Positions 32,552 to 63,580 of a DNA stretch of 64,000 bases are shown in pieces. Under the pieces are notes generated by a model that worked only from the letters and a program-made list of their open reading frames with translations, ran no database searches and was not told where the DNA came from. Positions within the stretch are counted from its first letter, which is position 1; each line of letters begins with the position of its first letter. The translations under genes and the position numbers were made by a program. The stretch spans positions 620,001 through 684,000 of the forward strand of contig NZ_CP099402.1 of the NCBI RefSeq assembly GCF_024721175.1, written 5' to 3'. The stretch comes from Rhizobium sp. Pop5 (GTDB lineage Bacteria; Pseudomonadota; Alphaproteobacteria; Rhizobiales; Rhizobiaceae).

Positions 32552-32553
32552 CC

Positions 32554-44480: not shown

Positions 44481-45110
44481 TCAGCCGACAATACGGGCCT
44501 CGGTCGCTGCCAGAACATCACTCTCTGACGTTCCCGGCGCCAATTCCACTACCTTCAATCCGCCTGGGACCACATCAAATACGCAGAGATTGGTGATGAC
44601 CCGGTTCGCTACGCCCTTTCCAGTCAAGGGTAGACTGCATTTCTTCAGAATCTTCGATTCGCCTGCTTTGTTCGCATGCTCCATGAGGACAACCACACGT
44701 CCAACCCCGGCGACTAGATCCATAGCGCCGCCCATCCCCTTCACAAGCTTACCGGGGATCATCCAGTTGGCGAGATCTCCTTCCTCGGACACCTCCATCG
44801 CGCCGAGGATGGCCATTGCGATCTTTCCACCACGGATCATTGCAAAGGAAGTCGCGCTATCGAAGTAGGCCGTCTGCGGCAATTCCGTGATCGTCTGTTT
44901 CCCGGCGTTGATCAGATCTGGGTCCTCCTCACCTTCGTAGGGGAAGGGGCCCATACCCAGCATCCCGTTTTCAGATTGCAAGGTGACATTGACCCCGTCC
45001 GGAATATAGTTCGATACGAGGGTCGGAATGCCGATGCCAAGATTTACATACCAGCCGTCCTGTAGTTCCAGCGCTGCGCGGGCGGCCATCTGATTGCGGT
45101 CCCAAGCCAT
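44481..45110 (-). CDS. 3-oxoacid CoA-transferase, subunit B
   Basis: A 209-residue CoA-transferase family I beta subunit. N-terminal [21 protein letters not shown], then [14 protein letters not shown] with the catalytic glutamate in SENG, and [19 protein letters not shown]. It moves CoA from succinyl- or acetyl-CoA to a 3-keto acid. It follows subunit A without a gap (stop and start adjacent) and is the last gene of the leftward branch of the TetR-linked locus. The acceptor may be a 3-keto acid formed by the BKACE/dehydrogenase steps. Confidence 0.92.
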
Positions 45111-45815
45111 TTATTGAGCCTCCCGTTTACGAACCGTTCGTTGCTCGATCTGTTTCACTTGCTGCCCTTGTATCAGGCGATGAACATAGATTCCCGGAAG
45201 GTGAATGTGGTCAGGATCGAGCGAGCCTAGAGGGACAATCTCCTCAACCTCCGCAACGCAAATCTTTCCGCATGTGGCAGCAGGGGGATTGAAGTTGCGC
45301 GCTGTCTTTCGGAACAGCAGATTGCCTGCGGGGTCGGCCTTCCAGGCCTTCACGATGGAAACGTCTGCGACGATCGCACGTTCGAGGACAAAGGTCCTGC
45401 CGTCGAATTCCTTATGCTCTTTGCCTTCGGCGATCACTGTGCCCACGCCAGTGGGGGTGTAGAAAGCGGGAATGCCTGCGCCACCGGCGCGCATGCGCTC
45501 GGCAAGAGTGCCTTGCGGATTGAACTCGAGCTCCAACTCCCCGCTCAGATATTGCCGCATGAACTCAGCGTTCTCACCGACGTAGGACGAGATCATCTTG
45601 CTGATCTGCCTCGTTTTCAGAAGAATACCGAGTCCAAAATCATCGACGCCGCAATTGTTGGAGGCGATGGTCATGTTCTTCGTTCCGGCGTCCCTTATCG
45701 CGGTAATCAAGAGTTCCGGGATTCCGCACAGCCCAAAGCCGCCCGACGCGATTGTCATGCCATCATAAAGGAGACCGGCGAGTGCGGCCTCGGCTGTTGG
45801 ATAGGTCTTGTTCAT
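45111..45815 (-). CDS. 3-oxoacid CoA-transferase, subunit A
   Basis: A 234-residue alpha subunit: [20 protein letters not shown] near the N-terminus (18-37), then [29 protein letters not shown] and [25 protein letters not shown] is five bases before the start. It forms the heterotetramer with subunit B. Its promoter is shared with the saccharopine-dehydrogenase-like gene 120 bases upstream, which lies behind the TetR-type site at 47084. Confidence 0.92.
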
Positions 45816-45934
45816 GGCTCTCCCTTAACCATTGGTTTGGCCTGCATGGCGTGCATCGCCTCACCCGGCCCATCGCATGACAGTTGCCCTAAGGGCCACT
45901 CAGCAGTGTGCTCGTGCCCGAGCCGAGCGCTTAT

Positions 45935-47071
45935 TCAGAAGCGGGTGGTCACGACGCCGTCGGCGAAACACTCCGCGTCGCTGGCAAGACGCAGGAAACG
46001 GTCGATGCCACTCTGATAGGGGATCGCCTCCACTCCGTTGGCTCCCGCTGGAACACCGCCCTCAAGAAGTGATAGCGCCGCGGCGGAGATGCCGAGTCCC
46101 GTGCCACGGCTCATGTCTCCCGCATCCGTGATCGACTTCATAACGATCGGCTTGTTCCCTCGCGTGCCGATGACGTTGACCTGGGTCGCCGAGATTCGTT
46201 GCGCGCTCGGCTTCAATTCATGTCTCTTCCAGAGCAACTTCCACAAAACCTCGATCGGCTGTACGTCCTTGCCGTCAATTTCGACCACCATGTCGGAATG
46301 GCCGAAACCAATTCGTCCGAGTGTCGAGAAGGCGGCATTCGCCCAATTCGGGAAGAGCGAGCCCTTGCACTGAACCAGCGAAAGATCGGGACGAAAGCGC
46401 CCTAACGTGACTGGCTCCGGATGGGCAGTGTCGTAGGCCTCGATCCGATGAAAGGGGGGCGGTACATCGAAGCTTTCGGCGGTTTCCGGAACAAAGCCCT
46501 TGGTGAATTCCATACCGCCGTTTCGCCACGTCGGACACGGCGCTACCGCCATGTGCAACATGTGCCGCAATACAGCGAGGCCGCCCGGATCCGGCTCGCG
46601 CGTGATCCAGACAATTTTGACGCCGTCGAGGTCCGGGTGACTTTCAAGCAAGCTGCAGGCAAGCCAATTTGATACGCCCGGCGAGAGTCCGGCACCCGTT
46701 ATCACCGGCACATTTCCGGATTTGGCCGACTCGTCCAGAGCGAGAATTGTCGTCGTGCCTTCGGCATCGTCCCCTACATCGATGTAGGCCGCACCTGCGG
46801 CGATGGCCGCGCGTGCCGCTCCATCCGAGCCGAGAAAAAACGGGCCGGCCAAGTTCACCACCAGATCCATACCTGATGCGTCGAGGCCGTCACTCGAAAT
46901 ATCAAATTGACGGCTTGCTATTCTTTCAGGGGCGATCGCTTCACCCAGACGCAGGCTTTCTGCGGACCGGTCGACGACGACGAACCTTGCGTTGGGCAGT
47001 GACCGCGCGAGGATTGCGAGCGCGCTCCTTCCCATGTGGCCCGCGCCCACGAGCATAATTGTTGGGCTCAT
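45935..47071 (-). CDS. Saccharopine dehydrogenase-like NAD(P)-binding protein 1
   Basis: A 378-residue oxidoreductase with a Rossmann start IMLVGAGHMGRSALAIL (5-21), NLAGPFFLGSDGAARAAIAAGAAYIDVGDD, and GAGLSPGVSNWLACSL. The family includes saccharopine dehydrogenase and related enzymes forming or splitting secondary amines. It is a distant paralogue of the gene at 56151 in the same locus (shared SPG-N segment and HPEPVT/HPEPLT). AGGAGGAGAC precedes the start. Divergent from the BKACE gene; the 175-base space contains two TetR-type palindromes. Substrate unknown. Confidence 0.83.
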   Translation of the reverse strand: MSPTIMLVGAGHMGRSALAILARSLPNARFVVVDRSAESLRLGEAIAPERIASRQFDISSDGLDASGMDLVVNLAGPFFLGSDGAARAAIAAGAAYIDVGDDAEGTTTILALDESAKSGNVPVITGAGLSPGVSNWLACSLLESHPDLDGVKIVWITREPDPGGLAVLRHMLHMAVAPCPTWRNGGMEFTKGFVPETAESFDVPPPFHRIEAYDTAHPEPVTLGRFRPDLSLVQCKGSLFPNWANAAFSTLGRIGFGHSDMVVEIDGKDVQPIEVLWKLLWKRHELKPSAQRISATQVNVIGTRGNKPIVMKSITDAGDMSRGTGLGISAAALSLLEGGVPAGANGVEAIPYQSGIDRFLRLASDAECFADGVVTTRF

Positions 47072-47083
47072 CGTCTCCTCCTA

Positions 47084-47103
47084 AAGAATGAACGTTAATT
47101 CAT
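47084..47103 (-). promoter_or_regulatory. TetR-type operator site 1 (saccharopine dehydrogenase-like/CoA-transferase operon)
   Basis: AAGAATGAACGTTAATTCAT matches the palindrome consensus ATTAATGAACGTTCATTAAT at 16 of 20 positions. Read on the minus strand, it follows TTGACG (47130-47125) by about 20 bases and overlaps the likely -10 (CTAATG). Binding would block the leftward operon. Confidence 0.75.
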
Positions 47104-47205
47104 TAGGCGCCCAATTTTTTTATTCGTCAAGAGCGTCGGCGGCTGTTGGATGGGCTTGTGCGCAACATGGCATCCAACGGATTGGGTCTTTACACCTTTG
47201 TCAAT

Positions 47206-47225
47206 ATGCATTAACGTTCATTCAT
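47206..47225 (+). promoter_or_regulatory. TetR-type operator site 2 (BKACE operon)
   Basis: ATGCATTAACGTTCATTCAT; its complement matches the consensus at 16 of 20 positions and site 1 at 17 of 18 core bases. It lies 22 bases before the BKACE start and just downstream of TTTACA/TTGTCA -35 candidates at 47189-47203. Binding would repress the rightward operon. Confidence 0.75.
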
Positions 47226-47246
47226 ATTGCTGCAAGGGAGGTTCTA

Positions 47247-48260
47247 ATGTCACGCAGACCGAACACGGTAAATTGGGAGCAGGTAAACAAATGGGTATCC
47301 CGGGAGGGAGCCCAGGCGAGTTGGAAAGTTTTCGGTTTCCCGTCGATTATGTCGATCGACCGAACTGCCTTTTCGGACGCCGAGCCGATGCCGAAATGGG
47401 AGGCTCCGCCCAAGCTCATCCTGTCGACCGCGATCAATGGCGCCTTCTATACGAAGAACGAGAACCCCAACCAGGCGATTACGCCTGAGGAGATCATCCG
47501 CTCCGCTGAGGAATGCATCGCCGCAGGAGCGCAGATCATCCATATTCATGCGAGAGACGAACGCGGCTACAACGTGCTCGACACTGGTCTTTTCCGCGAA
47601 ACGCTGACGCATCTGCGCACCAACCATCAGCATGTCGCACTGGACGCCTGCCTCGTTGCAGTGAACGCGGATGAAGAGCGAATGATGGCCGAAATGATGA
47701 AGCTCGGCCTTATGGAGGGCGTGCCGGTCAACACGACGGCCCTCATTCTCGGCGACAATCACTTCGTCAAATCTCCCGCGACAATCATCGAGAAAACCAA
47801 GCGCGCCCTCGACGCCGGCCTCACGCCGCAGATTGCGGTTTACTCCGATGCCGACATCGACAATGCCCGCCGGTATCTGATCGACAGTGGCCTCATTCAG
47901 GGCCCTCTGAACTGGCTGGTTCTGCCCGGTCTTCCGGGCTGCAGCCCGATGTACTCGCCCGAAACGATGGTCGACGGCTTCCTTCGGCTCGTTCGGCTCA
48001 TCCGCCACATCGACGCAGACTCTACCATCATCGCCTGCACCGGCGGTCGTACCAGCAGTTACCTTGCGACCCTGGCAATCCTGCTCGGCGTTCATGTGCG
48101 GGTCGGCATGGAAGACACGGTTTGGAAGTGGCCTCACCGTGACGACAAGATTCAGTCGAACGTCGAGGTATTCCAGCAGATTTCTGGAATAGCGGGTGCA
48201 CTAGGCCGCGATCTGATGACCGCCGATGAGTATCGCGATCTTATGACGCTGCGCGCGTGA
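47247..48260 (+). CDS. BKACE family enzyme (DUF849, beta-keto acid cleavage)
   Basis: A 337-residue TIM-barrel enzyme. Core starts KLILSTAINGAFYTKNENP (57-75); metal histidines are in IIHIHARDERG (97-107); later WLVLPGLPGC and LGVHVRVGMEDTVW, the DUF849 signature. BKACE enzymes exchange a beta-keto acid with acetyl-CoA to give acetoacetate and a new acyl-CoA; members act on 3-keto-5-aminohexanoate, dehydrocarnitine and other substrates. About 55 residues precede the usual start. The ATG at 47247 has AAGGGAGG seven bases upstream. Acetoacetate made here could feed the CoA-transferase encoded next door, and the acyl-CoA could come from or go to the ligase gene that follows. Confidence 0.9.
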   Translation: MSRRPNTVNWEQVNKWVSREGAQASWKVFGFPSIMSIDRTAFSDAEPMPKWEAPPKLILSTAINGAFYTKNENPNQAITPEEIIRSAEECIAAGAQIIHIHARDERGYNVLDTGLFRETLTHLRTNHQHVALDACLVAVNADEERMMAEMMKLGLMEGVPVNTTALILGDNHFVKSPATIIEKTKRALDAGLTPQIAVYSDADIDNARRYLIDSGLIQGPLNWLVLPGLPGCSPMYSPETMVDGFLRLVRLIRHIDADSTIIACTGGRTSSYLATLAILLGVHVRVGMEDTVWKWPHRDDKIQSNVEVFQQISGIAGALGRDLMTADEYRDLMTLRA

Positions 48261-48266
48261 CCCTCT

Positions 48267-48293
48267 GAGGCGACACTGACACGGTGTCGCCTC
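48267..48293 (+). terminator. Hairpin after the BKACE gene
   Basis: GAGGCGACAC (48267-48276) is perfectly complementary to GTGTCGCCTC (48284-48293) around a 7-base loop, six bases after the stop codon. No T-run follows, so it may be a partial terminator or mRNA-stabilising hairpin before the ligase gene. Confidence 0.55.
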
Positions 48294-48433
48294 CCGCAAA
48301 GGCGCGGTCTCGACACGCGTTGTGTGGTAGCATCGATCGCAGGACCGCTTAGCCGAACAGACCAGCTGTCTGGAAGCGACGATCTCTCAATCCGGCCAGC
48401 GATCGGATTTATTTCGAACCAGGAGAGAAGTCA

Positions 48434-49951
48434 GTGGCTTACCGCAACTATCGGACGATTCTTCATGCCTTGCTCGACTGGGGCGAGCGCACACCCGACG
48501 CTGCCGCAGTCACCGATGGGGATACGGAGATTTCGTACGCTTCATTGGCTTCCCTGGTGGAAGCAGCGTCCAGGCGGCTGGTCTCACTCGGTGTACAAAG
48601 GCGGGACCGGGTGGTCCTTGTCGGTAACAATACTTGGCAGTGGGTCATATGCTATCTGGCGACGATGCGCATCGGCGCAATCTCCGTGCCAATGAACAAT
48701 CGGCTGGCGCCCGCGCAAGTCGGCGAATTGCTGGAGATACTCGAGGCACGTATTGTTCTAGCGGACGACCTCCATTTGGGCATGTTTAAGGAATGCGCCG
48801 GAGTCGAAGTGTTCTCGATCACCGGCTCTGCCGGCAGGTCCTTCTTCTCGCTTGAAACAGCCACGGAACTCCCTGCCCTGCCGGAGGCGTCGGAAGACGC
48901 TTTGATTAGCTTCACCTCCGGCACCACAGGAGTTCCAAAGGGTGCAGTCATCACTCATAAGGCCCTGCGGCAGAACGCGGAGGTATTCGCTGACCTAATA
49001 GGCGATGACCAGTCACCCTCGACGTTGATTGTTGCCCCCTTGTTTCACAATACCGGCTTTGTCGATCAACTCTGCACCATGCTCTTTCTCGGCGGCCGCT
49101 CCGATCTTCTGCCACGATATCGGACGCAAGGGGCCATTGAGGCATGCAAGCGCCGTCCCGTCAGCTTCGTCACGGCGGTCCCGAGCGTTTTGCGGATGAT
49201 GATGACAGCCGAAGGTGCCGAGGCGATTTACGGGCCGGCGCGGTTGGTTCTGTTCGGCGGTTCGCCGATGCCTGCGCCATGGTCCTTGGAAATGCATCAG
49301 CGCTGGCCAAACCTGCGGTTGGTGCATGGCTATGGCCTGACCGAATTCACGTCGTGTTGCACTCTTCTTCCGCCTGAATTCATCCTAAGCCACGGCGACT
49401 CGATCGGCTATCCGGCCAAAGGCGTGGAGTTGCGGCTGGTGGATGAGAATGGTCAAGATGTGCCGGATGGGGTTCCGGGGGAGATTTGGGTGCGTGGCGA
49501 AACGCGCATGCGCGAATACTGGCGCCGCCCCGACGTCACCGCCGAGAAAATCCAAGGCGAATGGCTTCGGACCGGCGATCTCGGGGAACGTCGCGAGCTT
49601 GGCCTTCTATATCACGTCGGCCGCCGGGATGACGTGATCAACAGGGGTGGGGAAAAGATTCTTCCCTCCTTTATCGAGGCGGCAATGGCAAAGATCCCCG
49701 AAGTCGCTCAAGCTGTGGTATTTGGCATTCCTCACCCAGTGCTGCAGAACAGCATCGTCGCCGCGCTCGAGCCTCGTCCAGAGACAAAGGTAAATGTCCC
49801 GGCGCTCCTGGATTTCCTGCGTACGCAACTTCCGGGCTATGCCGTGCCGGAAACGATTATCGTCGGCAACGACCTTCCGCGCACGGCCTCAGGAAAGCTT
49901 GACAGACGTGCCGTGCGCGCCGCCTACCTCTCATCCGCGCAAGGTCACTAG
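48434..49951 (+). CDS. AMP-forming acyl-CoA synthetase/ligase
   Basis: A 505-residue ANL-superfamily ligase. ATP loop TSGTTGVPKGAV (about 158-169), VHGYGLTEFT (A5), RTGDLG (A7), GGEKILPSFIEAA (A8 region) and the catalytic lysine in RTASGKLDRRAV (A10). The GTG start at 48434 follows AGGAGAG. It activates a carboxylic acid to acyl-AMP and acyl-CoA. The acid is probably the product of the aldehyde dehydrogenase in the same locus. It is similar in plan to crotonobetaine/carnitine or short-chain CoA ligases, but the substrate pocket cannot be assigned. Confidence 0.9.
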   Translation: MAYRNYRTILHALLDWGERTPDAAAVTDGDTEISYASLASLVEAASRRLVSLGVQRRDRVVLVGNNTWQWVICYLATMRIGAISVPMNNRLAPAQVGELLEILEARIVLADDLHLGMFKECAGVEVFSITGSAGRSFFSLETATELPALPEASEDALISFTSGTTGVPKGAVITHKALRQNAEVFADLIGDDQSPSTLIVAPLFHNTGFVDQLCTMLFLGGRSDLLPRYRTQGAIEACKRRPVSFVTAVPSVLRMMMTAEGAEAIYGPARLVLFGGSPMPAPWSLEMHQRWPNLRLVHGYGLTEFTSCCTLLPPEFILSHGDSIGYPAKGVELRLVDENGQDVPDGVPGEIWVRGETRMREYWRRPDVTAEKIQGEWLRTGDLGERRELGLLYHVGRRDDVINRGGEKILPSFIEAAMAKIPEVAQAVVFGIPHPVLQNSIVAALEPRPETKVNVPALLDFLRTQLPGYAVPETIIVGNDLPRTASGKLDRRAVRAAYLSSAQGH

Positions 49952-49994
49952 GAAAGCCGCCGCCTCTTCTCGGCGACAGCAGCAGGAACAAGCC

Positions 49995-50363
49995 ATGCAT
50001 AGAGAACCAACGGTATTCCGCAAGGATACGACTGAATTTGCCGCATACGGTGAAGGGCCTGGTGAGGCATCGATTGCGCGCCTCGTCGGGCCCCAGGAAA
50101 GTGAGACGATGGGCGCCTATCTCGCCCGCTTCAACGGTCGGTCTGTGCCTTGGACAGTGCGCTATGATGAGCTCATCACGTGTATCGAGGGCGCGTTCCG
50201 CCTTCGCGTCGGCCTGATCCTTCACACTCTCCACCCCGGCGATGTGATCTGGATCCCAAAGGACACCGAACTCGCTTACGACGGCGCAGACAGTCTCGTC
50301 TTTATCGCGATCGCTCCAGTCGATTGGCGCAACCGGCTCAGTCAAGACGCGACGCAAGTGTGA
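49995..50363 (+). CDS. Cupin-domain protein, EutQ-like
   Basis: A 122-residue single-cupin protein: TMGAYLARFNGRSVPWTVRYDELITCIEGAFRLRVG and LHPGDVIWIPKDTELAYDGADSLVFIAIAPVDWR. The order fits ethanolamine-utilisation EutQ-type cupins, one of which is a kinase for acetate in Salmonella. AGGAA lies about six bases before the ATG, which is 43 bases after the ligase gene. It could bind or modify a small intermediate. Metal-binding histidines are few, so a dioxygenase role is unlikely. Confidence 0.72.
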   Translation: MHREPTVFRKDTTEFAAYGEGPGEASIARLVGPQESETMGAYLARFNGRSVPWTVRYDELITCIEGAFRLRVGLILHTLHPGDVIWIPKDTELAYDGADSLVFIAIAPVDWRNRLSQDATQV

Positions 50364-50423
50364 AAGCGATCGACCCGACGGCATCGAGATCAATGCCGGT
50401 CGAGGGCAACGCGAAGTCGATTG

Positions 50424-51122
50424 CTAATTCTCAAGCGCACCTGTCCGAGCGAGAAGCATATTCTGCGCAAGATGATAGAAGTGTTTGCAGATCTTTTCTG
50501 GGGTATAGGGTCCGCTTGGTCGATACCAATTGAGCACGTTGTCGCACATCGTGATGATTGCAAGGGCTGTTAGCCGCGCCTCGGGTGGCGAGCCTGTCGC
50601 CGGCGAGGGTATTGCCTCGACGATCTTGGTCAGTCGGTCAAGATGTTCTCTCATCATGCCCTTCACCTTGTGTCTGACACTCGGATCCAGCTTGCTCAGA
50701 ATACCGGACTCGAGGAGACGATCGTTGGCCTGCGCTATCCTAGAATGGTTGATCTGGTAGAGGATGTGAGCGGTAGTGATGCTTTGCAGACGTTCAAGTG
50801 GAGCGGCCCCGGCGGAATCGGCGGCTGCGATCGCCGCGTTGAAGGCGCCTAGCGCTTCCGTCACCGCCCCGGCCAGAAGTTCTTCCTTGGACTTATAGTG
50901 ATTGTAGACGGCCGGTGCCTTGATGCCGACCTCGTTTGCAATGTCCTTCATCGAGGTAGCGTCAAAACCCCTTGACCCAAAAAGTTCGATCGCTGCGCCG
51001 AGCAGTCGCTCTCGTGTGTCCGACCGACTCGCCGACACTTTGCTGGCCTGGTTGTTACGACGGGGTGACCGCTCTGCCTCATCAGGAGCGGCCTCCTGAT
51101 AGTTGCGTGCGAGTTCGTTCAC
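50424..51122 (-). CDS. TetR-family regulator
   Basis: A 232-residue regulator. The helix-turn-helix is at about 40-75: GFDATSMKDIANEVGIKAPAVYNHYKSKEELL. The C-terminal domain (LERLQSITTAHILYQINHSR, PEARLTALAIITMCDNVLNWY) is the ligand/dimer domain, with a tail ICKHFYHLAQNMLLARTGAL like acyl-CoA-responsive members. The GTG at 51122 (VNELARNYQ) is preferred: GAGGA lies eight bases upstream, though five more codons to an ATG are open. It is transcribed leftward, alone, against the rightward permease operon. Four 20-base palindromes near the promoters of this locus are its probable targets. A CoA thioester may be the inducer. Confidence 0.88.
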   Translation of the reverse strand: MNELARNYQEAAPDEAERSPRRNNQASKVSASRSDTRERLLGAAIELFGSRGFDATSMKDIANEVGIKAPAVYNHYKSKEELLAGAVTEALGAFNAAIAAADSAGAAPLERLQSITTAHILYQINHSRIAQANDRLLESGILSKLDPSVRHKVKGMMREHLDRLTKIVEAIPSPATGSPPEARLTALAIITMCDNVLNWYRPSGPYTPEKICKHFYHLAQNMLLARTGALEN

Positions 51123-51293
51123 AATAATGATCCTCATGAATATCTGTTCACATAATGCGTCACCAATGCCGATCTGTCAAAGGAACATGGTCAAAATTCG
51201 CCGCTTGCTCGGAATTACTTTTCGGGTGCATTTAGAGGGTTTTCAACTGCGTTTGTGGGCTTTTCAGATCGGCATGGGCCGCGACGGAAGCGC

Positions 51294-51340
51294 TTGACAT
51301 ATTGGCGTTATGGGAGGAATATTAATGATCGTTCATTCAT
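51294..51340 (+). promoter_or_regulatory. Promoter with TetR-type operator site 3 (permease operon)
   Basis: TTGACA at 51294-51299 is followed by -10 candidates GAATAT (17-base spacer) or TATTAA (20-base spacer), and the palindrome ATTAATGATCGTTCATTCAT at 51321-51340 overlaps the latter. The complement of the palindrome matches the consensus ATTAATGAACGTTCATTAAT at 18 of 20 bases. Binding would block initiation of the small-protein/NCS1 operon. Confidence 0.8.
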
Positions 51341-51448
51341 TGTTGCTCTTGTTGGAAAGGGCATGTGGCGAACGAGGCGGCGCCGCTGGTGCGGCCAAAT
51401 AGTAAAGAGCCGGCAACCGGCCGGGAACGTCCAGAAAAGGGAACGACG

Positions 51449-51664
51449 ATGTCAATTGAATTGGAACGGGCGCACCTGCCCGAAGCCCGCGGGTTCGAGG
51501 TTGCTCTGGATGCGGAGCTCGCCAGACGAATCCAATCCTTGGAAGAGGCTCCGCATATCGACTCCGAATGCTACGCGCCGACGCGCGCCTGCTTCGTCGA
51601 AGCCACGAGTTGGGCAATTCTCGGGGTCGCGATCTGGATCGCGACACTGTTCTATTTTGGTTAA
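51449..51664 (+). CDS. Small single-span membrane protein upstream of the NCS1 permease
   Basis: A 71-residue protein starting MSIELERAHLPEARG. Residues 1-50 are polar and helical, with two cysteines (SECYAPTRACF, 43-53), and a C-terminal hydrophobic helix SWAILGVAIWIATLFYFG ends the protein. AAAGGGA is seven bases before the ATG. It stops 12 bases before the NCS1 permease start, so the two are cotranscribed. A role as small accessory or stabilising partner of the permease is a guess from position. No family name is known to me. Confidence 0.7.
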   Translation: MSIELERAHLPEARGFEVALDAELARRIQSLEEAPHIDSECYAPTRACFVEATSWAILGVAIWIATLFYFG

Positions 51665-51676
51665 GGAGGAGAACCC

Positions 51677-55960: not shown

Positions 55961-55971
55961 CGGAGGGACCA

Positions 55972-56151: not shown

Positions 56152-57326
56152 TGGCCCGGCAGTGGAAGACAATTGTAATCGGTGCAGGCGGGTCGCAGGC
56201 ACAAGCGATGTTGCGCGGTATCGCACGTGCCGACGCGACTGAGGGCTGGCTTGCGATCGATCGCGCTTGGCGGCCGCAGACACGTGCTGCAACTGAAGAG
56301 ATGGGCTTTGCCGTTCAGGAACTGAACCCGCTCGAACAACCGGAAACTCTGCACAGGCTGTTAGAAACGACCCGCCTTGTGGTGAACATGGCTGGACCTT
56401 ACTACAAGACCGGCTTTGCCATCCTCGACGCCGCCATCGAAACCGGGACCGACTATCTCGATATCTGCGACGATGCGGACATTACCCTCCCTATGCTCGA
56501 GCGGGACGCCCGCGCCAAACAGGCCGGCATTTCCGCCCTCATCGGAATGGGCTCCTCCCCCGGAACGACGAACATCCTGATCCGAAGTGCTGTCGACCAT
56601 CTCGGCCCAGTCGACGACGTTGACATCTACTGGACGGTCGACGTCGCGGATCTGACCGAGGCCGCAATCCGGCACTTCTGGCATTGCTTCAATCTGGTTG
56701 ATGCGGACGGCACAATACATGAAGTGACGGGCTGGGATGGCCTGGAGCGTCGGCAGGTCGAGTTCCCGGCGCCGGTCGGCCTGCAGACGGTCGTCAGGCT
56801 CGCCCATCCGGAGCCGTTGACGGTGCCGCGTTTTCTTCCGGTCAAGCGTGCCTCCAATTTCGGTAGCCTCAATCCGGAAGAGGCGCTCGTCACCGCCTGG
56901 GCGCTCGCACATATTGCCGATGAACAACGCTCCAATGGAGAACTGACCGATCCCGCGGCCAGCCTTTTCCGCTATTACAGGGAAAGGCGCGTTGGAGCAC
57001 CACGGATTGGCAGCGGCATGATTATCGACGTGCACACGGCTGGCTCCGGTCTGAGGTTTGCAGCCGGCAGCGACGGTGGGATGGACGATTCCACGGGAAT
57101 TCCGGCCGCAGCCGGCGCGTTGTTGATGCTCGATGGAAAGATCAACCGCCGGGGCGCCTTTGCGCCGGAAGTGGTGCACCCCGCCGACTTTTTTGAAGTG
57201 CTGCGACGCGTGAGCACGGGCGGCGGCGGCTTGTCTCTGTTCAGACTTGAGGGCGGCGTCGCGACGGAACGGTTGAGAATCCGCGATCTGGTGGCGGGAG
57301 AAATTGGCCAGAGGGAGGTAGCATGA
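56151..57326 (+). CDS. Saccharopine dehydrogenase-like NAD(P)-binding protein 2
   Basis: A 391-residue oxidoreductase. Rossmann start TIVIGAGGSQAQAMLRGIA (about 7-25), NMAGPYYKTGFAILDAAIETGTDYLDICDDAD, GMGSSPGTTNILI and HPEPLTVPRF. The start ATG at 56151 has AAGGAG ten bases upstream. It overlaps the next SDR by four bases. It is the second member of this family in the locus; the two differ clearly in sequence, so they may act at successive steps or on different forms of the substrate. Saccharopine dehydrogenases join or split amino acids through secondary amines, again pointing to a nitrogenous substrate. Confidence 0.84.
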   Translation: MARQWKTIVIGAGGSQAQAMLRGIARADATEGWLAIDRAWRPQTRAATEEMGFAVQELNPLEQPETLHRLLETTRLVVNMAGPYYKTGFAILDAAIETGTDYLDICDDADITLPMLERDARAKQAGISALIGMGSSPGTTNILIRSAVDHLGPVDDVDIYWTVDVADLTEAAIRHFWHCFNLVDADGTIHEVTGWDGLERRQVEFPAPVGLQTVVRLAHPEPLTVPRFLPVKRASNFGSLNPEEALVTAWALAHIADEQRSNGELTDPAASLFRYYRERRVGAPRIGSGMIIDVHTAGSGLRFAAGSDGGMDDSTGIPAAAGALLMLDGKINRRGAFAPEVVHPADFFEVLRRVSTGGGGLSLFRLEGGVATERLRIRDLVAGEIGQREVA

Positions 57327-58117
57327 TGCGAGAGCTTGAAGGAAAGGTTGCCCTTGTTACCGGCGGCGGCCGGGGAATTGGCGCCGGCATTGCTGGGGGC
57401 CTGGCTCAGGCCGGTGCAACGGTGGCCCTCATGGGACGCACCCGAGCTCCGCTTGACGAGACTGCCGCGCATATTCAGGCGGGCGGCGGGAGAGCTTCCG
57501 TTCATATCGGAAGCGTCAGTAATCCCGACGAAGTCGAACGCGTGCTTGATGATGTACTGGCCGCACATGGTAGGCTGGAGATCATTGTCAACAATGCCGG
57601 CATCGTTGACGAAGCGGATTTCCTCGATATCTCGCTCGAGGGCTGGAACAAGACCATCGGCACAGATCTGACCGGAGCGTTCCTGGTGACCCAGCGGGCC
57701 GCACGCAGGATGCGCGGCACAGGCGGCGGTTCCGTGGTCAACATCGCCTCGATTGACGCCAATGGCTACGACGGTCCTCAGGGTTCGTATGTCGCCGCGA
57801 AGGCGGGCCTTGTGGGCTTGACGAAGAATGCTGCGGTCGAGCTCGCGCAACACGGTATCCGGGTGAATTCAGTCAGCCCGGGCTGGACGCGCACTCCAAT
57901 GGTCGAGGAATTCGTGTCTGAGAAGGCACTTCAGCACATGATGACCGACTTTCAGCGCGTGCCCATGAAGCGGCTTGTCGAAATCCCTGAGCTCGCCAAC
58001 GCTGTCGTCTTTCTTGTCTCTGACAAGGCTTCCGCGATTACCGGAATCGACTTGCCGGTCGACTGCGGAACGCTGGCGACGCTCTACGTCCACGAAACCA
58101 TCCGGCCCTTGTTCTGA
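57323..58117 (+). CDS. Short-chain dehydrogenase/reductase A
   Basis: A 264-residue classical SDR. TGGGRGIG at 14-21, NNAGI (around 90-94), IASIDANGYDGPQGSYVAAKAG with the Ser...Tyr-x-x-x-Lys active site, and PGWTRTPMV. It follows the saccharopine-dehydrogenase-like gene with a four-base overlap and precedes the FAD oxidoreductase by 12 bases. It should oxidise a hydroxyl of an intermediate, for example to the beta-keto acid needed by the BKACE enzyme. One of three SDRs in the operon. Confidence 0.88.
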   Translation: MMRELEGKVALVTGGGRGIGAGIAGGLAQAGATVALMGRTRAPLDETAAHIQAGGGRASVHIGSVSNPDEVERVLDDVLAAHGRLEIIVNNAGIVDEADFLDISLEGWNKTIGTDLTGAFLVTQRAARRMRGTGGGSVVNIASIDANGYDGPQGSYVAAKAGLVGLTKNAAVELAQHGIRVNSVSPGWTRTPMVEEFVSEKALQHMMTDFQRVPMKRLVEIPELANAVVFLVSDKASAITGIDLPVDCGTLATLYVHETIRPLF

Positions 58118-58129
58118 AGGAGGACGACG

Positions 58130-59284
58130 ATGTCGCCACGTATCGCCATTATTGGAGCGGGTGTCGCAGGCTGCGGAGCCGCGCTGAGAGCTGCACAACT
58201 GCATGCCAAGGACGTCGTCGTTCTGGAAAAAGGCACGCCGGCCTCCGGATCCTCTGGCCGCTCGGCAGGGGTTTACAACACACAGACGCTCGATCCTTTG
58301 CAGATCGAGATCCGCATCCGTTCGAGGGAAATTCTGTTCCAGCTGGAACGCAACCGCGGTCTGCCGCTGGCCCGCATCGGCAATATCCGCATTGCGACGA
58401 CGGAAGCCGACATTCCCAAACTCGAATCCGCACTCGCCGCGATCAAGAGCTTCGGCGCGGACGATACGCGGATCTTGTCGCAAAAGGAGCTGCAGGCTCT
58501 CGTTCCCGACCTGCGCTGCGATGACGTCGTCGCCGGCCTTTACGGCGTCAACGACGGTCATCTCGACGGTCATCTCCTTTGCTCCGCGCTGATCGATGAA
58601 GCACGCGATCTCGGCGCGAAGGTAATGAACAATGCGGAGGTGCTTGCCTATGAAAAGCGTGGATCGACCCATGTACTGTCAACCACGCGCGGGAAGATCG
58701 AATGCGACGTGGTGATCAATGCCGCAGGCGCCTGGGCGGGGCACGTTGGCAATTTGCTGGGACATGCAGCACCTATCAAGCCCGAGGTGCACGAGGTGAT
58801 CATCGTCAAGCTGCCGCGTAAGCTCGATTACGTCGTTCCCATGTGCAACTTCTATATGCCTGGCCAGAACGGCGCCGGTATCTATTTCAGGCAAGACGGC
58901 GAGGATTCGCTGATTGCCGGGCTTCACACCTACTATTCGGTCGAAGGCCACGAAGTCAGTGACCCCGACTCCTATAGCCCGCCGGATGGCGACGACTATT
59001 TTCTCGAGGTAGCGCAACTCGTCAGCGATCGGCTGCGGATCGACGACCTCGGCTTCAAAAACGGCTGGCATGGCCTCTATCCCTTGAGCGCCGACGGGGA
59101 GTTCCAAATCGGTCCCTACGCAGCCGATCCCTCCGTCATCGTCGTCGCCGGCATGGGTGGCACGGGAGTAACGAGCGGTGCGCTGACCGGAGCCCTTGCT
59201 GCCGAGTGGGCGATACTCGGCAAGCCGGCCACCGTTCCCGATGCCGTGAAGCTTCTGCCCGACAGGCTGTCGCGGGCCGCTTGA
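58130..59284 (+). CDS. FAD-dependent oxidoreductase (DAO family, amine-type)
   Basis: A 384-residue flavoprotein with GAGVAGCGAALRAAQ (9-23) as dinucleotide motif, VLEKG binding adenosine ribose, SSGRSAGVYNTQTL as flavin loop, and the closing GMGGTGVTSGALTGALAAEW. The DAO family oxidises amino acids and N-methyl amines (glycine, sarcosine, dimethylglycine). ETF genes are encoded at the end of the same gene run, so electrons may go to ETF rather than oxygen. AAGGAGGAC precedes the start. Substrate not assignable. Confidence 0.85.
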   Translation: MSPRIAIIGAGVAGCGAALRAAQLHAKDVVVLEKGTPASGSSGRSAGVYNTQTLDPLQIEIRIRSREILFQLERNRGLPLARIGNIRIATTEADIPKLESALAAIKSFGADDTRILSQKELQALVPDLRCDDVVAGLYGVNDGHLDGHLLCSALIDEARDLGAKVMNNAEVLAYEKRGSTHVLSTTRGKIECDVVINAAGAWAGHVGNLLGHAAPIKPEVHEVIIVKLPRKLDYVVPMCNFYMPGQNGAGIYFRQDGEDSLIAGLHTYYSVEGHEVSDPDSYSPPDGDDYFLEVAQLVSDRLRIDDLGFKNGWHGLYPLSADGEFQIGPYAADPSVIVVAGMGGTGVTSGALTGALAAEWAILGKPATVPDAVKLLPDRLSRAA

Positions 59285-59312
59285 AACAGATCATTCCAAG
59301 AAAGGCGCCGAC

Positions 59313-60167
59313 GTGAAAGTCCTGCTTACAAATGACGATGGTTACCAATCCCCCGGAGTTGCAGCGGCACGCGACGCGCTGATCGCCTGCGGCCTTCAGG
59401 TGCTGACGGTTGCGCCCGACGGCCCGCGGAGCGGTACGTCGAGATCCGCCTCGTTTCGCAAGGCGATTACGATGACCAAGGCCGGCGGTGACGACGTCAA
59501 TCCGATTTATGTCACCAATGGTACCCCAACCGATTGCGTTCGCGTCGCGGTTCTTTCCGGCCTTGCTTCGGAAGTCGACGCCGTTGTGTCCGGCATCAAC
59601 GAAGGTGCGAACCTCGGCGACGACGCCACCTATTCCAGCACGCTCGGATCTGCAATCGAAGGCGCCTTATTGGGCTTTCCAGCACTTGCCGCATCCCAGC
59701 AGTCCCGGGACGGCCGTTTCCGGCTGGTCGATCTGACCGACTACGATTTCAGCTGCGGCGCCCGGATCATGGCGGAACTTACCAGGCTGATGATCCGGGA
59801 CCGGTCGAAGCTGCCGCCCCGATCGGTTTTGAACTTCAATGCGCCAGCCCTGCCAGCCGGCGAGATCAAGATCGCAAGTCTCGATCGCCGCGTCTGGGAT
59901 CCATCTCGCATCCACTCGATCGAGACAGAGAACGGCCCCGGATGGCTGCTTTTCGGCACGCATCCTGAACGCGATCCGATTTTTGAGCATCGACCGGGAT
60001 CCGATTCCTGGGTGCTGTCACAGGGCCATGCGGCGCTGACGCCCCTCAACTTCGAATGGACCTTGCCCGGCGCGCGACGCGGGTTCGCCAGATGGACGCG
60101 CTCCGCTGTTGCTGAGCTCAATGAAGCGCTCGCTTCCGAGCAATCGGGAAAGGAGCTGGGATCATGA
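59313..60167 (+). CDS. SurE-family phosphatase
   Basis: A 284-residue SurE homologue: LLTNDDGYQSPGV with the metal-binding Asp pair (DD at 8-9), the serine in PRSGTSRSASF, VTNGTPTDCVRVAVL, and SGINEGANLGDDATYSSTLGSAIEG. SurE proteins are metal-dependent 5'/3'-nucleotidases that also act on polyphosphate; in stationary-phase loci they sit beside pcm. Here it lies inside a catabolic operon with a small-molecule kinase, which suggests dephosphorylation of a pathway intermediate. The GTG start follows AAAGG. It overlaps the next SDR by four bases. Confidence 0.86.
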   Translation: MKVLLTNDDGYQSPGVAAARDALIACGLQVLTVAPDGPRSGTSRSASFRKAITMTKAGGDDVNPIYVTNGTPTDCVRVAVLSGLASEVDAVVSGINEGANLGDDATYSSTLGSAIEGALLGFPALAASQQSRDGRFRLVDLTDYDFSCGARIMAELTRLMIRDRSKLPPRSVLNFNAPALPAGEIKIASLDRRVWDPSRIHSIETENGPGWLLFGTHPERDPIFEHRPGSDSWVLSQGHAALTPLNFEWTLPGARRGFARWTRSAVAELNEALASEQSGKELGS

Positions 60168-60997
60168 ACGACAATTTCTGCGTGGTGATCAGCGGTGCCG
60201 GCGGCGAGATGGGCCGGGCGCTGGCCAGCCGATTTGCTCGCGACGGACATGATATCGTCTTGATCGATCGTGATGTCGCCGAATTTGGTCCAATCGAGGA
60301 GGAGTTGCGTCGAGCCGGCGCCGCAAGGGTTTTTTCCTTGGCTGCCGATCAGACGGATCCGGACGCGCTCGAAAAAGCCGTTTCTGAGATCGGCGATTGT
60401 TTCGGGGCCATAGGAACTTTTGTCGCAAATGCTGGCTTCGCGAGATTTGGCGGGTTCCTCGAAACATCCAGAAAGGTGTGGGATCTCCATGTCGACATCA
60501 ATCTCAACGGCACCTTTCATCTCTGCCAGTCAGTCGCACGCAATATGGTCGCAGGGGGCAAGGGAGGGAGCATAACTCTGATTTCATCCTGCCTTGCTCA
60601 GTTCCACGCGGACCAGACCGGCGCATACAGCGCGACCAAGGCTGCGCTCCTGATGTTGACCAGGACCATGGCAGCGGAGCTCGGGATCTACCGCATTAGG
60701 ACGAACTCCGTCCTTCCCGGCGTCGTGGAAACCGCGATGACCCGTCCGATGCTGGATGTTCCCGGCTGCCGGGAAACATTGCTGCAGGAGACGCCGGCAG
60801 GGCGCCTCGGTAGACCGGAAGACGTTGCGGAGGCCGTCGCGTTTCTGGCAAGCCCAGCCGCTGGTTTCATAACGGGGGCATCGCTGCTCGTTGACGGCGG
60901 GCAGTCCATTTATGGCCAACCGCAATGGGTTCGCCAGGATCGTTCGACGCCGGGAGAGCCAAAATGGCTGTCCACTGCAGACGGTTCGCCAGCATGA
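60164..60997 (+). CDS. Short-chain dehydrogenase/reductase B
   Basis: A 277-residue SDR. Cofactor loop SGAGGEMG (10-17, in place of the usual TGxxxGIG), VANAGFARFG, SSCLAQFHADQTGAYSATKAA with Tyr-x-x-x-Lys, and ITGASLLVDGGQS, the usual ending, followed by an atypical tail of about 25 residues. The altered cofactor loop (E-M instead of G-I) is mild and seen in active members. It is coupled by ATGA overlap to the third SDR. Confidence 0.85.
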   Translation: MNDNFCVVISGAGGEMGRALASRFARDGHDIVLIDRDVAEFGPIEEELRRAGAARVFSLAADQTDPDALEKAVSEIGDCFGAIGTFVANAGFARFGGFLETSRKVWDLHVDINLNGTFHLCQSVARNMVAGGKGGSITLISSCLAQFHADQTGAYSATKAALLMLTRTMAAELGIYRIRTNSVLPGVVETAMTRPMLDVPGCRETLLQETPAGRLGRPEDVAEAVAFLASPAAGFITGASLLVDGGQSIYGQPQWVRQDRSTPGEPKWLSTADGSPA

Positions 60998-61776
60998 GCG
61001 ACGGCGAGAACAAGAAAGCTTCACCGCGCGAAACCGCTGTCGTCACAGGTGCCGCGTCGGGCATTGGTGCTGCTGTGGCACGGCGGTTTTTGGAACGCGG
61101 GGCGAACGTTTTCATGCTCGACCGAAACCTCGACGGCCTTCGAACCGTGTCGTCAGATGCGGATGGCTGCGGCGGAACGGTGAACACATTCCAGGCGGAT
61201 GTCATCGACGGCGCAAGGCTCGGAGAGATCTTTGCCGAGATTAACCGCCTCGGGGGCATCGACCACGTCGTTCATTGTGCCGGTGTGGCGCGGCTCGGAA
61301 CCGTCACCGAAATGGATGAGTCGACCTTTGACCTCGTAATGAACGTCAATCTCAAGGGTACTTTCTTGCTGGCCAAGCATGCGATGCCCTGTCTCGTGAG
61401 CCGAAAAGGAAGCTTCACCGCGATCGCATCCGACGCGGGCACACAGGGCGCATCGGGCTATGCCGCATATTGCGCAAGCAAGCACGGCATGGTGGGCTTG
61501 ATCAAGTCGATGGCATTGGACCATGGGCCGCAGGGTGTCCGGTGCAACGCGATCTGCCCGGGTTTCGTTCAAACTCCGATGCTGGATCAACTGTTTGCCG
61601 ACAGCCCTTCCGATCGCGGCTTCTACAAAAGAAGCGTCCCGTTGGGACGATTTGCGCGACCCGAGGATGTTGCCGAACTGGCGGGATTCATTGCATCGCC
61701 AGCTGGCGCCTATCTGAACGGGGCGGTCATCGCGCTGGATGGAGGCTCCACAGCGGGATATTTCAGCGGCGCTTGA
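60994..61776 (+). CDS. Short-chain dehydrogenase/reductase C
   Basis: A 260-residue SDR: TGAASGIG (17-24), a CAGVARLG loop in place of NNAG (CAG), DAGTQGASGYAAYCASKHG with Tyr-x-x-x-Lys, and VIALDGGSTAGYF at the end. The start by ATGA overlap with SDR B is preferred to a 23-codon longer frame. It is the last catabolic enzyme before the ETF genes. The pattern of three consecutive-type SDRs suggests several hydroxyl oxidations, or one substrate with different stereochemistry. Confidence 0.86.
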   Translation: MSDGENKKASPRETAVVTGAASGIGAAVARRFLERGANVFMLDRNLDGLRTVSSDADGCGGTVNTFQADVIDGARLGEIFAEINRLGGIDHVVHCAGVARLGTVTEMDESTFDLVMNVNLKGTFLLAKHAMPCLVSRKGSFTAIASDAGTQGASGYAAYCASKHGMVGLIKSMALDHGPQGVRCNAICPGFVQTPMLDQLFADSPSDRGFYKRSVPLGRFARPEDVAELAGFIASPAGAYLNGAVIALDGGSTAGYFSGA

Positions 61777-61872
61777 ACCGTGCAATATGCGTTGGACCGC
61801 GGTTTGCCAACCCTGCCCAGCAGGCTCATTACGCACCATTTCCCCAAACCATTCGAAACGGAGACTGCGAAG

Positions 61873-62622
61873 GTGAAAGTTCTCGTCACAGTAAAGCGCG
61901 TCGTCGACTACAACGTGAAGATCCGCGTGAAGTCTGATGGCACAGGCGTCGAGCTCGCGAACGTCAAGATGTCGATGAACCCGTTCGACGAGATCTCGGT
62001 GGAAGAGGCGCTGCGGCTGAAGGAAGCCGGCAAGGCCGAGGAAGTGGTGGTCGTCTCGATCGGCCCGGCCAAGGCCGAGGAGACGCTGAGGACCGCACTT
62101 GCCATGGGTGCCGACCGGGCGGTGCTGGTCGAGACCGACGATCAAGTCGAGCCGCTGGCCGTCGCCAAGATCCTCAAGGGTGTGGCCGATGCCGAGCAGC
62201 CGGGCCTGATCATCGTCGGCAAGCAGGCGATCGACGACGATTCGAACCAGACCGGCCAGATGCTGGCGGCATTGCTCGGTTCGGCGCAGGCGACCTTCGC
62301 CTCGAAGATCGAGATCGGTGAGGGAAGCGCCAAGGTCACCCGCGAGGTCGACGGCGGCCTGCAGACGATCGAGATCAAGCTGCCGGCGGTGGTGACCACC
62401 GATCTCAGGCTCAATGAGCCGCGTTATGCCTCGCTGCCGAACATCATGAAGGCGAAGAAGAAGCCGCTCGACAAGAAGTCGCCTGATGATTTCGGCGTCT
62501 CCACCACGCCGCGGCTGAAGGTGCTGAAGACCGAGGAACCCAGCGGCCGCAAGGCCGGCGTCAAGGTCAAGTCGGTCGCCGAACTGGTCGACAGACTGAA
62601 GAACGAAGCCGACGTGCTGTAA
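61873..62622 (+). CDS. etfB: Electron transfer flavoprotein, beta subunit
   Basis: A 249-residue ETF beta subunit starting [22 protein letters not shown], with the family features [56 protein letters not shown] and [17 protein letters not shown] frame 31 codons longer upstream is not supported; GGAG lies nine bases before the GTG and the length is then exactly typical. It binds AMP and, with EtfA, carries electrons from flavin dehydrogenases to the quinone pool. Its composition looks more like core genome than the preceding genes. The partner dehydrogenase could be the FAD oxidoreductase at 58130. Confidence 0.94.
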
Positions 62623-62647
62623 TCGGACTGGAACAGGAGCAATTATC

Positions 62648-63580
62648 ATGACCATTCTTCTTCTGGCCGACCATGACGGCCATCATCTCTCCGACCAGAC
62701 CGCCAAGGCGCTGACGGCGGCCTCCCAGATCGGCGGCGACGTGCATGTGCTGGTCGCCGGCAAGGCCGCCAAGGCGGCGGCCGATCAGGCGGCAAAACTC
62801 TCCGGCGTCTCCAAGGTGCTGCTCGCCGAAAGCGACGCGCTTGCCAACAATCTCGCCGAGCCGCTCGCCGATCTGATCGTCTCGCTCGCCGGCTCCTATG
62901 ATACGATCGTCTCTGCCGCCACCTCGGTCGGCAAGACCGTGCTGCCGCGGGTCGCCGCCCTGCTCGACGTCGCCCAGGTCTCCGAGATCATCGAAGTCAT
63001 CTCCCCCGACACTTTTAAACGGCCGATCTATGCCGGCAACGCCATCCAGACCGTGCAGGTGACCGATGCCAAGAAGGTCATCACCGTGCGCACCGCATCC
63101 TTTTCCCCCGCCTCCCAAGGCGTATCTGCTGCCGTTGAGGAGATCTCAACGGCAGCCTTTTCTTCTGATCTTTCGGCGTTTGTCTCCAACGCGCTGTCGT
63201 CGTCGGACCGTCCGGAACTGACCTCGGCGAAGATCATCATCTCCGGCGGCCGGGCGCTCGGCTCTGCCGAGAAGTTCAGGGAAGTCATCCTGCCGGTCGC
63301 CGACAAGCTCGGTGCTGCCGTCGGCGCAAGCCGTGCGGCCGTCGATGCTGGTTACGCCCCGAATGACTGGCAGGTCGGTCAGACTGGCAAGGTGGTCGCC
63401 CCCGATCTCTACATCGCCGCCGGCATCTCAGGCGCCATCCAGCATCTGGCCGGCATGAAGGATTCGAAAGTGATCGTCGCGATCAACAAGGACGAGGAGG
63501 CGCCGATCTTCCAGGTCGCCGACTACGGCCTCGTCGCCGATCTCTTCGACGCCCTGCCGGAACTCGAGCGTGCGCTTTAG
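62648..63580 (+). CDS. etfA: Electron transfer flavoprotein, alpha subunit
   Basis: A 310-residue ETF alpha subunit. N-terminal domain [26 protein letters not shown] domain [55 protein letters not shown] and [20 protein letters not shown]. All signature segments are intact. It begins 25 bases after etfB with AACAGGAGC as ribosome site. It forms the ETF heterodimer. Confidence 0.94.

Follow-up and report, generated by a model that had tools for sequence, protein, structure and literature searches.

A 22.6-kb gene block of Rhizobium sp. Pop5 as a candidate TetR-controlled regulon for catabolism of a hydroxylated amine

The 64,000-nucleotide stretch of Rhizobium sp. Pop5 DNA analyzed here (contig NZ_CP099402.1, positions 620,001 to 684,000; hereafter the window) contains a large set of putative catabolic genes, and raises the question whether these genes serve one pathway and, if so, what kind of compound it consumes. 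An initial annotation of the same DNA had proposed a single undescribed pathway for a nitrogen compound, encoded at window positions 44481-63580. With a probability of about 0.5, our analysis favors a single catabolic regulon, controlled by a TetR-family protein, for a hydroxylated secondary amine, probably cyclic or N-alkylated, from plants or soil. What the sequence itself shows is the gene content of the block, its intactness, the recurrence of the gene set and the operator-like sites shared by its units.

All protein families that had been named are present with strong profile scores: subunits B and A of a CoA-transferase (CoATB, CoATA), two saccharopine-dehydrogenase-type oxidoreductases (SDH1, SDH2), a beta-keto acid cleavage enzyme (BKACE), a CoA ligase, an NCS1-type permease, an aldehyde dehydrogenase (ALDH), a kinase (KIN), three short-chain dehydrogenases/reductases (SDR1 to SDR3), an FAD enzyme (DAO), a SurE-type phosphatase and the beta and alpha subunits of an electron-transfer flavoprotein (ETF). 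The span of 44481-63580 is correct as the distance from CoATB to the end of the ETF alpha gene, but the unit is larger. A single unbroken alignment with plasmid pRetKim5d runs from 44387 to 67003 (94.06% identity over 22,665 columns), ends just outside CoATB and a chemoreceptor gene and leaves the flanks unaligned, and we therefore take as the natural unit a 22.6-kb block that reaches two genes past the earlier span and ends beyond the window, with 44387..64000 inside it. The block lies on a 952-kb contig within the 6.74-Mb genome and includes genes for a cupin, a TetR-family regulator, an alpha/beta hydrolase and the chemoreceptor, which stood outside the title and reasoning of the initial annotation. 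SDH1, CoATA and CoATB are encoded in that order on the minus strand, followed by BKACE, the ligase and the cupin on the plus strand and TetR on the minus strand. Past TetR, the plus strand encodes a 71-residue protein, NCS1, ALDH, KIN, SDH2, SDR1, DAO and SurE, and then SDR2, SDR3, ETF beta, ETF alpha, the hydrolase and the chemoreceptor. Neighboring genes overlap by 1 or 4 bases in several places, all 21 block genes are open, and the ratio of nonsynonymous to synonymous substitution rates (omega) is 0.01-0.31 against Rhizobium sp. Kim5 and, as a rough estimate with many synonymous rates (dS) above 1, 0.02-0.17 against Sinorhizobium americanum CCGM7. A megablast search of 72,556 plasmid records gave any match in 387; at least 80% of 44481-63580 was covered in 15 of them (14 from Rhizobium and one from Sinorhizobium chiapasense) and 67% in S. 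americanum CCGM7. In S. chiapasense an IS5-type element separates the cupin gene from TetR, and the chemoreceptor gene beside the set lies on the opposite strand and is only 45% identical.

Consistent with a single regulon, a near-palindromic operator-like motif, AATGAACGTTMATTCATT, is found upstream of each inferred transcription unit. Comparison of intergenic regions revealed an 18-base near-palindrome at four sites in three such regions of the window: O1 (47087..47103) before SDH1-CoATA-CoATB, O2 (47206..47222) before BKACE, O3 (51324..51340) between TetR and the transporter unit, and O4 (53308..53324) before ALDH and the genes downstream. O1, O3 and O4 have no mismatch to AATGADCGTTMATTMAT and O2 has one, and all four have counterparts in Kim5, S. 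americanum and S. chiapasense (loci L024, L025 and L027). Two of the sites fall between 47088, the start of the longer BKACE reading frame, and the corrected start at 47247. A fifth, weaker site precedes the chemoreceptor gene (L023:1688, matrix score 15.5 bits). With a matrix of 16 sites from four genomes, only the four places reached at least 10 bits in the window; the reversed window, used as a control, gave one match of 14.7 bits. Allowing up to one mismatch, the own genome holds five matches, which are the same four places with one read on both strands, and none outside the block, while 59 congeners together (36 previously searched for SDH2 and 23 not) hold four. Because this pattern derives from the sites in the window itself, the matches there arise by construction and their absence elsewhere is the informative part. 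Sharing of the motif by the units and its absence from the rest of the genome are what a single regulon would be expected to produce, with the TetR-family protein (50424..51137, minus strand; PF00440 and PF17932) as its proposed controller. Together with the 22.6-kb alignment and the recurrence of the set, the motif strengthens the one-pathway proposal. Expression of the genes under different conditions had been named as a finding that would speak against it; what the sequence offers on this point is a TetR-type operator-like motif common to the inferred units.

Operator-like sites also accompany some of the related sets in other taxa. In Mesorhizobium, all three matches with up to two mismatches (two places) lie on the cluster contig, with one match in the control: one place is before SDH1/BKACE, and the other is directly before a unit (L030:15644-20832) for a binding protein, hydantoinase A and B subunits nearest to caprolactamase, and an ABC transporter. 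In a groundwater metagenome-assembled genome (MAG), five of eight matches (three places; control, 0) lie on the cluster contig, in the TetR-SDH2 gap, in the intergenic region upstream of a gene whose product is 45% identical to the alpha/beta hydrolase (L032:7111-8076) and before a flavoprotein of the old yellow enzyme (OYE) type. The gene for the latter, an OYE/FadH-type protein of 712 residues (L032:15582-19197), has a third saccharopine-dehydrogenase-type gene beside it. On another contig of this MAG, a two-mismatch site precedes genes for a permease, ETF beta and alpha (38 and 40% identical to the block ETF), a GGDEF protein and an 815-residue DAO-GCV_T protein. TetR relatives occur beside the Sphingobium, Mesorhizobium, Gordonia, groundwater and Microbacteriaceae sets at 36-49% identity and beside that of MAG SZAS-15 at 31%. 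A wider pattern, which is partly circular as it was written after seeing matches in other loci, placed six of six own-genome matches with up to one mismatch inside the block and found sites in Sphingobium, Microbacteriaceae and SZAS-15. Outside the Rhizobiales these sites suggest co-regulation only weakly.

Related and partly rearranged gene sets recur in Sinorhizobium, Sphingobium, Mesorhizobium, Gordonia and three actinobacterial MAGs. A protein search with SDH2 found 229 homologues, the best 120 of which are listed at 50-92% identity; among the matches listed, those with a named organism share 52-69% and come from Mesorhizobium, Pararhizobium, Streptomyces, Rhodococcus, Phycicoccus, Gordonia, Nocardia, Sphingobium and actinobacterial MAGs. 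Sphingobium TomTYG73 encodes ALDH, KIN, ligase, SDH2, SDR1, DAO, SurE and SDR2, and thereafter a cupin, EutH, TetR, a second SurE-like protein and BKACE; this second SurE-like gene (L026:28523-29377) has an altered motif, reading NAEG where others have NDDG. The Microbacteriaceae MAG carries ALDH, KIN, ligase, SDH2, SDR1, DAO, SurE, SDR3, SDR2, BKACE and TetR, and SZAS-15 carries TetR, SDH2, SDH1, ALDH, DAO, SurE, a distant ligase (24%), KIN, BKACE, SDR3 and SDR1. Shorter sets are found in Gordonia asplenii (DAO, SDH1, KIN, SDR1, TetR, SDH2), Mesorhizobium Root102 (SDR2, SDH1, BKACE, SDR1, ligase, SDH2, TetR) and the groundwater MAG (TetR, SDH2, SDR2, BKACE, SDR3, CoATA, CoATB). Transporters vary, from NCS1 to EutH in Sphingobium, an amino-acid permease near the Gordonia set and an ABC system in Mesorhizobium. 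The kinase and SurE had been described as misfits to carnitine-like degradation. They are not odd passengers, as Sphingobium and two actinobacterial MAGs again have the pair of them alongside DAO and ALDH.

Outside these carriers the set appears rare. Leaving the own genome aside, the top SDH2 match among 60 relatives has 36% identity. Scoring the best four to six first-look candidates per genome, we found DAO at E 1e-60 in two of 398 genomes of the phylum, the own genome and G114 (36% identity, seen within 4.1 kb only), and SDH2 at 1e-60 in one of 396 actinobacterial genomes, the central Gordonia itself. None of 295 Streptomyces genomes, scored in the same way, matched SDH2 at 1e-80, an empty result that is not proof of absence; since the protein search names Streptomyces carriers at 60-62%, such genome samples miss some carriers. 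A genome scan gave 40 loci, eight of them at 47% or above. One of these (L035, Gemmatimonadota, 47%) was dropped, as blastp found SDH2 alone and no other cluster gene in 14.6 kb. The other 32 loci (28-35%) were treated as other families, with the neighbors checked for L055, L057, L060 and L061 only, and of four plasmid records with DAO at 32-35%, the two that were read both hold other gene sets.

Several of the encoded proteins have affinities to amine enzymes, which upholds the proposal of a nitrogen compound. Scores in bits are profile scores (Pfam, NCBIfam/TIGR) and cut-offs are family thresholds; the probable starts of BKACE (about 47247, not 47088), ALDH (about 53493), SDH2 (about 56151), SDR3 (about 60994) and ETF beta (about 61873) were picked from annotated lengths in relatives. 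DAO (58130..59284, plus strand; PF01266, 211 bits) is nearest, among solved proteins, to dimethylglycine dehydrogenases (best relatives 5l46 and 4p9s), which are ETF-linked enzymes. The block thus has a DAO domain and ETF in common with dimethylglycine and sarcosine oxidation, but profile scans found the DAO domain only, with no folate-binding GCV_T domain, and do not place the protein among the dimethylglycine dehydrogenases. Because no acyl-CoA dehydrogenase was found among the scanned block proteins, DAO is the likely electron source for the block ETF (beta, 61873..62622, plus strand, PF01012, 143.2 bits for the longer reading frame; alpha, 62648..63580, plus strand, PF01012, 132.7 bits, and PF00766, 116.1 bits). 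ALDH (53493..54932, plus strand) has its nearest solved relatives (6c43, 1wnb) in the gamma-aminobutyraldehyde dehydrogenase type, and scores below the cut-offs of both profiles for that enzyme (NF010000/PRK13473, 605.1 of 615 bits; ABALDH, 497.4 of 909.3 bits); the ALDH family is shared with polyamine breakdown, whereas the partner genes in the block differ. The structure model of SDH2 (56151..57326, plus strand; PF03435, 50.8 bits), made from 23 sequences with a pLDDT of 88.8, is nearest in fold to carboxyspermidine dehydrogenase, saccharopine dehydrogenase, lysine dehydrogenase and homospermidine synthase. These are enzymes of amine chemistry, and the model would therefore also point to an amine, although the profile score for carboxyspermidine/carboxynorspermidine dehydrogenase is 38.7 of 800 bits (TM score 0.70 to 8deb). 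SDH1 (45935..47071, minus strand; PF03435, 43.3 bits) has relatives at 65% in the Mesorhizobium, 48% in the SZAS-15 and 46% in the Gordonia loci.

BKACE (47247..48260, plus strand; PF05853, 165.5 bits, cut-off 24.8) belongs to its superfamily by profile and by the HxH, Arg and Glu motifs, which we take to serve the metal site and which are kept in eight of eight aligned members. All eight also carry an N-terminal extension of about 50 residues, marking a divergent subfamily. It keeps the motifs of Kce, the 3-keto-5-aminohexanoate cleavage enzyme of lysine fermentation, but scores 138.6 bits against a cut-off of 382 for that enzyme (NF052387), and none of the other genes that we take to belong to lysine fermentation is among the family matches of the block. 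BKACE genes of the same subfamily, at 62% and 44% identity, also occur on Agrobacterium pAtl-11a and Arthrobacter pNicSoilB8 (L068, L069) with genes for a CoA ligase, a flavin reductase and hydrolases; pAtl-11a further encodes a 47% relative of the alpha/beta hydrolase, and a primary-amine oxidase 13 kb away. Acetoacetate, which BKACE also yields in carnitine degradation, would as the product of the block BKACE explain the presence of the CoA-transferase, both subunits of which score above the cut-offs for 3-oxoacid CoA-transferase (CoATB, 44481..45110, minus strand, TIGR02428, 324.2 bits, cut-off 243.55; CoATA, 45111..45815, minus strand, TIGR02429, 242 bits, cut-off 128.5).

The presence of a kinase together with a phosphatase implies a phosphorylated stage. 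KIN (54932..55960, plus strand; PF01633, 56.1 bits), of the choline-kinase/APH type, keeps what we presume to be the kinase motifs in four of four aligned sequences including the window, and SurE (59313..60167, plus strand) passes its equivalog score (TIGR00087, 155.3 bits, cut-off 135.1) and keeps, in alignment, the presumed active-site motifs. DAO and SurE are adjacent in nine of nine sets that hold both (the window, L024, L025, L027, L028, L029, L026, L033 and L084), six to seven of which are close rhizobial relatives. Where in the route the phosphorylated stage falls is a guess drawn from gene adjacency, of DAO to SurE and of ALDH to KIN. Separately, KIN-like genes (27-30%) adjoin genes for DAO-GCV_T proteins of 850-870 residues on Mesorhizobium contig C17 and SZAS-15 contig C242 (L090:14668-18149, L091:4401-7809). 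Their occurrence in two unrelated genomes suggests a wider link between such kinases and amine dehydrogenases; no operator-like site was found at these pairs within three mismatches.

From these parts we infer the substrate class, the order of steps, the electron route and the roles of the phosphate, the ligase and the hydrolase. The chemoreceptor would sense the compound, NCS1 and the 71-residue protein would import it, and KIN would phosphorylate a hydroxyl. DAO would then oxidize a C-N bond and pass the electrons to the co-encoded ETF, and the imine would open to an aminoaldehyde that ALDH converts to an amino acid. After removal of the phosphate by SurE, SDH1 and SDH2 would oxidize a further C-N bond and the SDRs would oxidize hydroxyls to give a beta-keto acid, from which BKACE, with acetyl-CoA, would form acetoacetate and an acyl-CoA. 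The CoA-transferase would activate the acetoacetate, and the ligase and alpha/beta hydrolase may handle a side acid or an ester or lactone form. We prefer a cyclic amine to a chain on indirect grounds, since the lactam-type enzyme of one relative and the DAO-ALDH pair of others would both yield an amino acid derived from a ring amine. The operator-like site before the caprolactamase-like unit of Mesorhizobium is what one would expect if that relative reached this kind of amino acid by opening a lactam. A more far-reaching version of this idea, which is speculative and rather unlikely, is a mobile pathway common to Alphaproteobacteria and Actinobacteria for a plant hydroxylated ring amine. Phosphate would serve as a temporary handle, put on by a choline-kinase-like enzyme and taken off by a SurE recruited from nucleotide metabolism; in between, an aminoaldehyde dehydrogenase and an amine dehydrogenase linked to ETF would oxidize and open the phosphorylated compound. 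Once dephosphorylated, it would be taken to a beta-keto acid for a new BKACE subfamily, and one operator, kept across both phyla, would govern the whole pathway.

A number of observations weigh against a single amine regulon. At two mismatches, the wider operator pattern gave 14 own-genome matches outside the block, against 11 in the control. The pattern from Rhizobium sites only, also at two mismatches, gave none in the Sphingobium record or in the Microbacteriaceae MAG, one in SZAS-15 on a contig other than that of the cluster, and five in Gordonia, of which one lies on the cluster contig and three precede a MenB/BadI-like gene. The MenB/BadI-like gene behind these overlapping Gordonia sites (contig C110, L085 near 9302-9343) is accompanied by an SDR and a CoA ligase, and the sites may be those of a different TetR whose operator is similar. 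Gene content is also incomplete: the 41 kb examined of Sphingobium TomTYG73 showed no SDH1, CoA-transferase, NCS1 or ETF, the Mesorhizobium and groundwater loci both lack DAO, ALDH, KIN and SurE, and no SurE or BKACE was found near the Gordonia set. The Mesorhizobium A subunit reaches only half the caprolactamase cut-off (512.9 of 1000). Finally, a Glu of Kce that presumably lies near the substrate is Phe in all eight BKACE members aligned, so that BKACE may not see an amine.

How far do other explanations account for the same genes? We consider it unlikely that the substrate is an acyclic hydroxylated diamine or polyamine-like compound of the hydroxyputrescine or hypusine type, whose chain the SDHs and ALDH would cut and oxidize while its hydroxyl gave rise to a 3-hydroxy acid, oxidized in turn to the 3-keto acid on which BKACE would act. 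The SDH2 fold and ALDH both indicate diamine chemistry; Gordonia encodes a flavin amine oxidase (by Pfam) and a second protein alike by eye about 5 kb beyond SDH2, and Mesorhizobium has, on another contig, an ALDH (46%) beside ABC-transporter genes that look polyamine-type by eye. However, profile scans found no polyamine transporter in the block, such a route would presumably leave no place for KIN and SurE, and the Mesorhizobium lactam-type enzyme suits a ring better. Somewhat more improbable is the presence of two or more unrelated adjacent pathways, for instance an amine unit from NCS1 to ETF and an acid unit of BKACE, ligase and CoA-transferase. Here the BKACE and ligase loci of pAtl-11a and pNicSoilB8, which are without DAO or SDH genes, speak for a separation and count against our favored reading, whereas the common operator-like motif before each unit and the co-occurrence of both halves in several taxa speak for one pathway.

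The best NCBIfam match of KIN is a biosynthetic N-oxide kinase (106.9 bits, cut-off 357), which would suit a detoxification or biosynthetic set in which KIN inactivates a compound, SurE releases it and the remainder modifies it. This is very unlikely, as BKACE, CoA-transferase, ETF and the chemoreceptor suit use as food and no export pump or assembly-line enzyme was found among the scanned block proteins. Catabolism of carnitine or a near relative (gamma-butyrobetaine, dehydrocarnitine) has in its favor a BKACE, SDRs, a betaine-aldehyde-like ALDH and a demethylase-like DAO, and is nonetheless hardly credible, in line with the initial annotation. Known carnitine degradation combines carnitine 3-dehydrogenase with dehydrocarnitine cleavage, so that BKACE is common to both systems, but no carnitine dehydrogenase was found among the scanned block proteins and the block does not qualify as a carnitine locus. 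The genome encodes that pathway separately, with another BKACE next to a carnitine 3-dehydrogenase elsewhere (G000:C4; 926.3 bits, cut-off 592), which makes a second carnitine locus unlikely, and the block BKACE differs by its N-terminal extension and substrate-side residues.

The favored reading, a regulon for a hydroxylated amine, has partial parallels in known systems. Deoxyribonate oxidation (PMC6365646) reportedly proceeds from a dehydrogenase to a beta-keto acid and on to BKACE, as in the route proposed here. Amine enzymes in the block take the place of the sugar enzymes of that pathway. Likeness to caprolactam degradation with ATP-dependent caprolactamase (PMC6061476 and PMC8453981) is confined to the Mesorhizobium A and B subunits, which score far below the cut-off, and the block in the window has no such enzyme. 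As the initial annotation had anticipated, no described pathway with the block's content was found in the open full-text literature, where most subscription papers are absent; new here is the unfamiliar combination of parts, catabolic operon systems as such being known. In the main text of an R. phaseoli root-exudate RNA-seq study (PMC8581550), the terms SurE, cytosine, 3-keto, flavoprotein and amine are absent, carriage of the block by its strain being unchecked.

As for the substrate itself, 4-hydroxypipecolate and ring amines of the fagomine type would suit the proposed chemistry on paper and are candidates only; among the matches listed for hydroxypipecolic acid, titles and abstract openings describe no such route. 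Tomatine or tomatidine, an idea from the tomato Sphingobium plasmids, is unsupported, as bean rhizobia carry the set too; in the passages on strains and plasmids of the tomato Sphingobium paper the cluster is unmentioned, no search there having been aimed at these genes. Tropane compounds are likewise unsupported, with no paper found in the open literature. The block forms a bounded and testable unit of about 21 genes, one regulator and five operator-like sites with named carriers (R. phaseoli, Rhizobium sp. Kim5, S. americanum CCGM7, Sphingobium TomTYG73 and Gordonia asplenii). Once its inducer is identified, a compound of roots or soil would come to light that is not known to be consumed by such a route. 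Two saccharopine-type dehydrogenases, a BKACE subfamily and a catabolic SurE would gain functions, and the occurrence of the block on plasmids of bean rhizobia with differing neighbors would be explained.

The remaining block genes, all on the plus strand, encode the AMP-forming acyl-CoA ligase (48434..49951; PF00501, 255.4 bits), the EutQ-like cupin (49995..50363; PF06249, 40.7 bits for the longer reading frame; 62% identical to the Sphingobium copy), the NCS1-type permease (51677..53152; PF02133, 77.9 bits; TIGR00800, 51.6 bits, under its cut-off of 353.1), SDR1 (57323..58117; PF13561, 204.5 bits), SDR2 (60164..60997; 195.5 bits), SDR3 (60994..61776; 203.6 bits for the longer reading frame) and the alpha/beta hydrolase (63634..64542, in the window to 64000; PF02129, 48.1 bits for the full gene). 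The chemoreceptor (64753-66972, outside the window) has a dCache-like domain that does not match what we take to be the amino-acid motif. Directly before NCS1, the 71-residue protein (51449..51664) is annotated in three of three relatives read, has no Pfam match and combines a single hydrophobic stretch (by eye), at its C terminus, with an APTRACF motif. It is possibly a small transporter subunit, and the 141-residue reading frame at 51255-51680, in another frame, is probably not the real gene. Other Rhizobium plasmids whose only match is at 61873-63580 carry ETF genes about 90% identical to the ETF pair of the block, and the dS of this pair against S. americanum is below that of other block genes; for both reasons it may be a recent recruit. 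Outside the block, about half of window positions 20001-44000 matches R. phaseoli plasmids at 90%, and 27397-28599 and 31816-36570 encode a BNR-repeat protein, an oligopeptide-type ABC transporter and a four-carbon acid sugar kinase. To the left of the block (39205-42849) are genes for a chemoreceptor whose sensor is a four-helix bundle and for an Nramp-type metal transporter.

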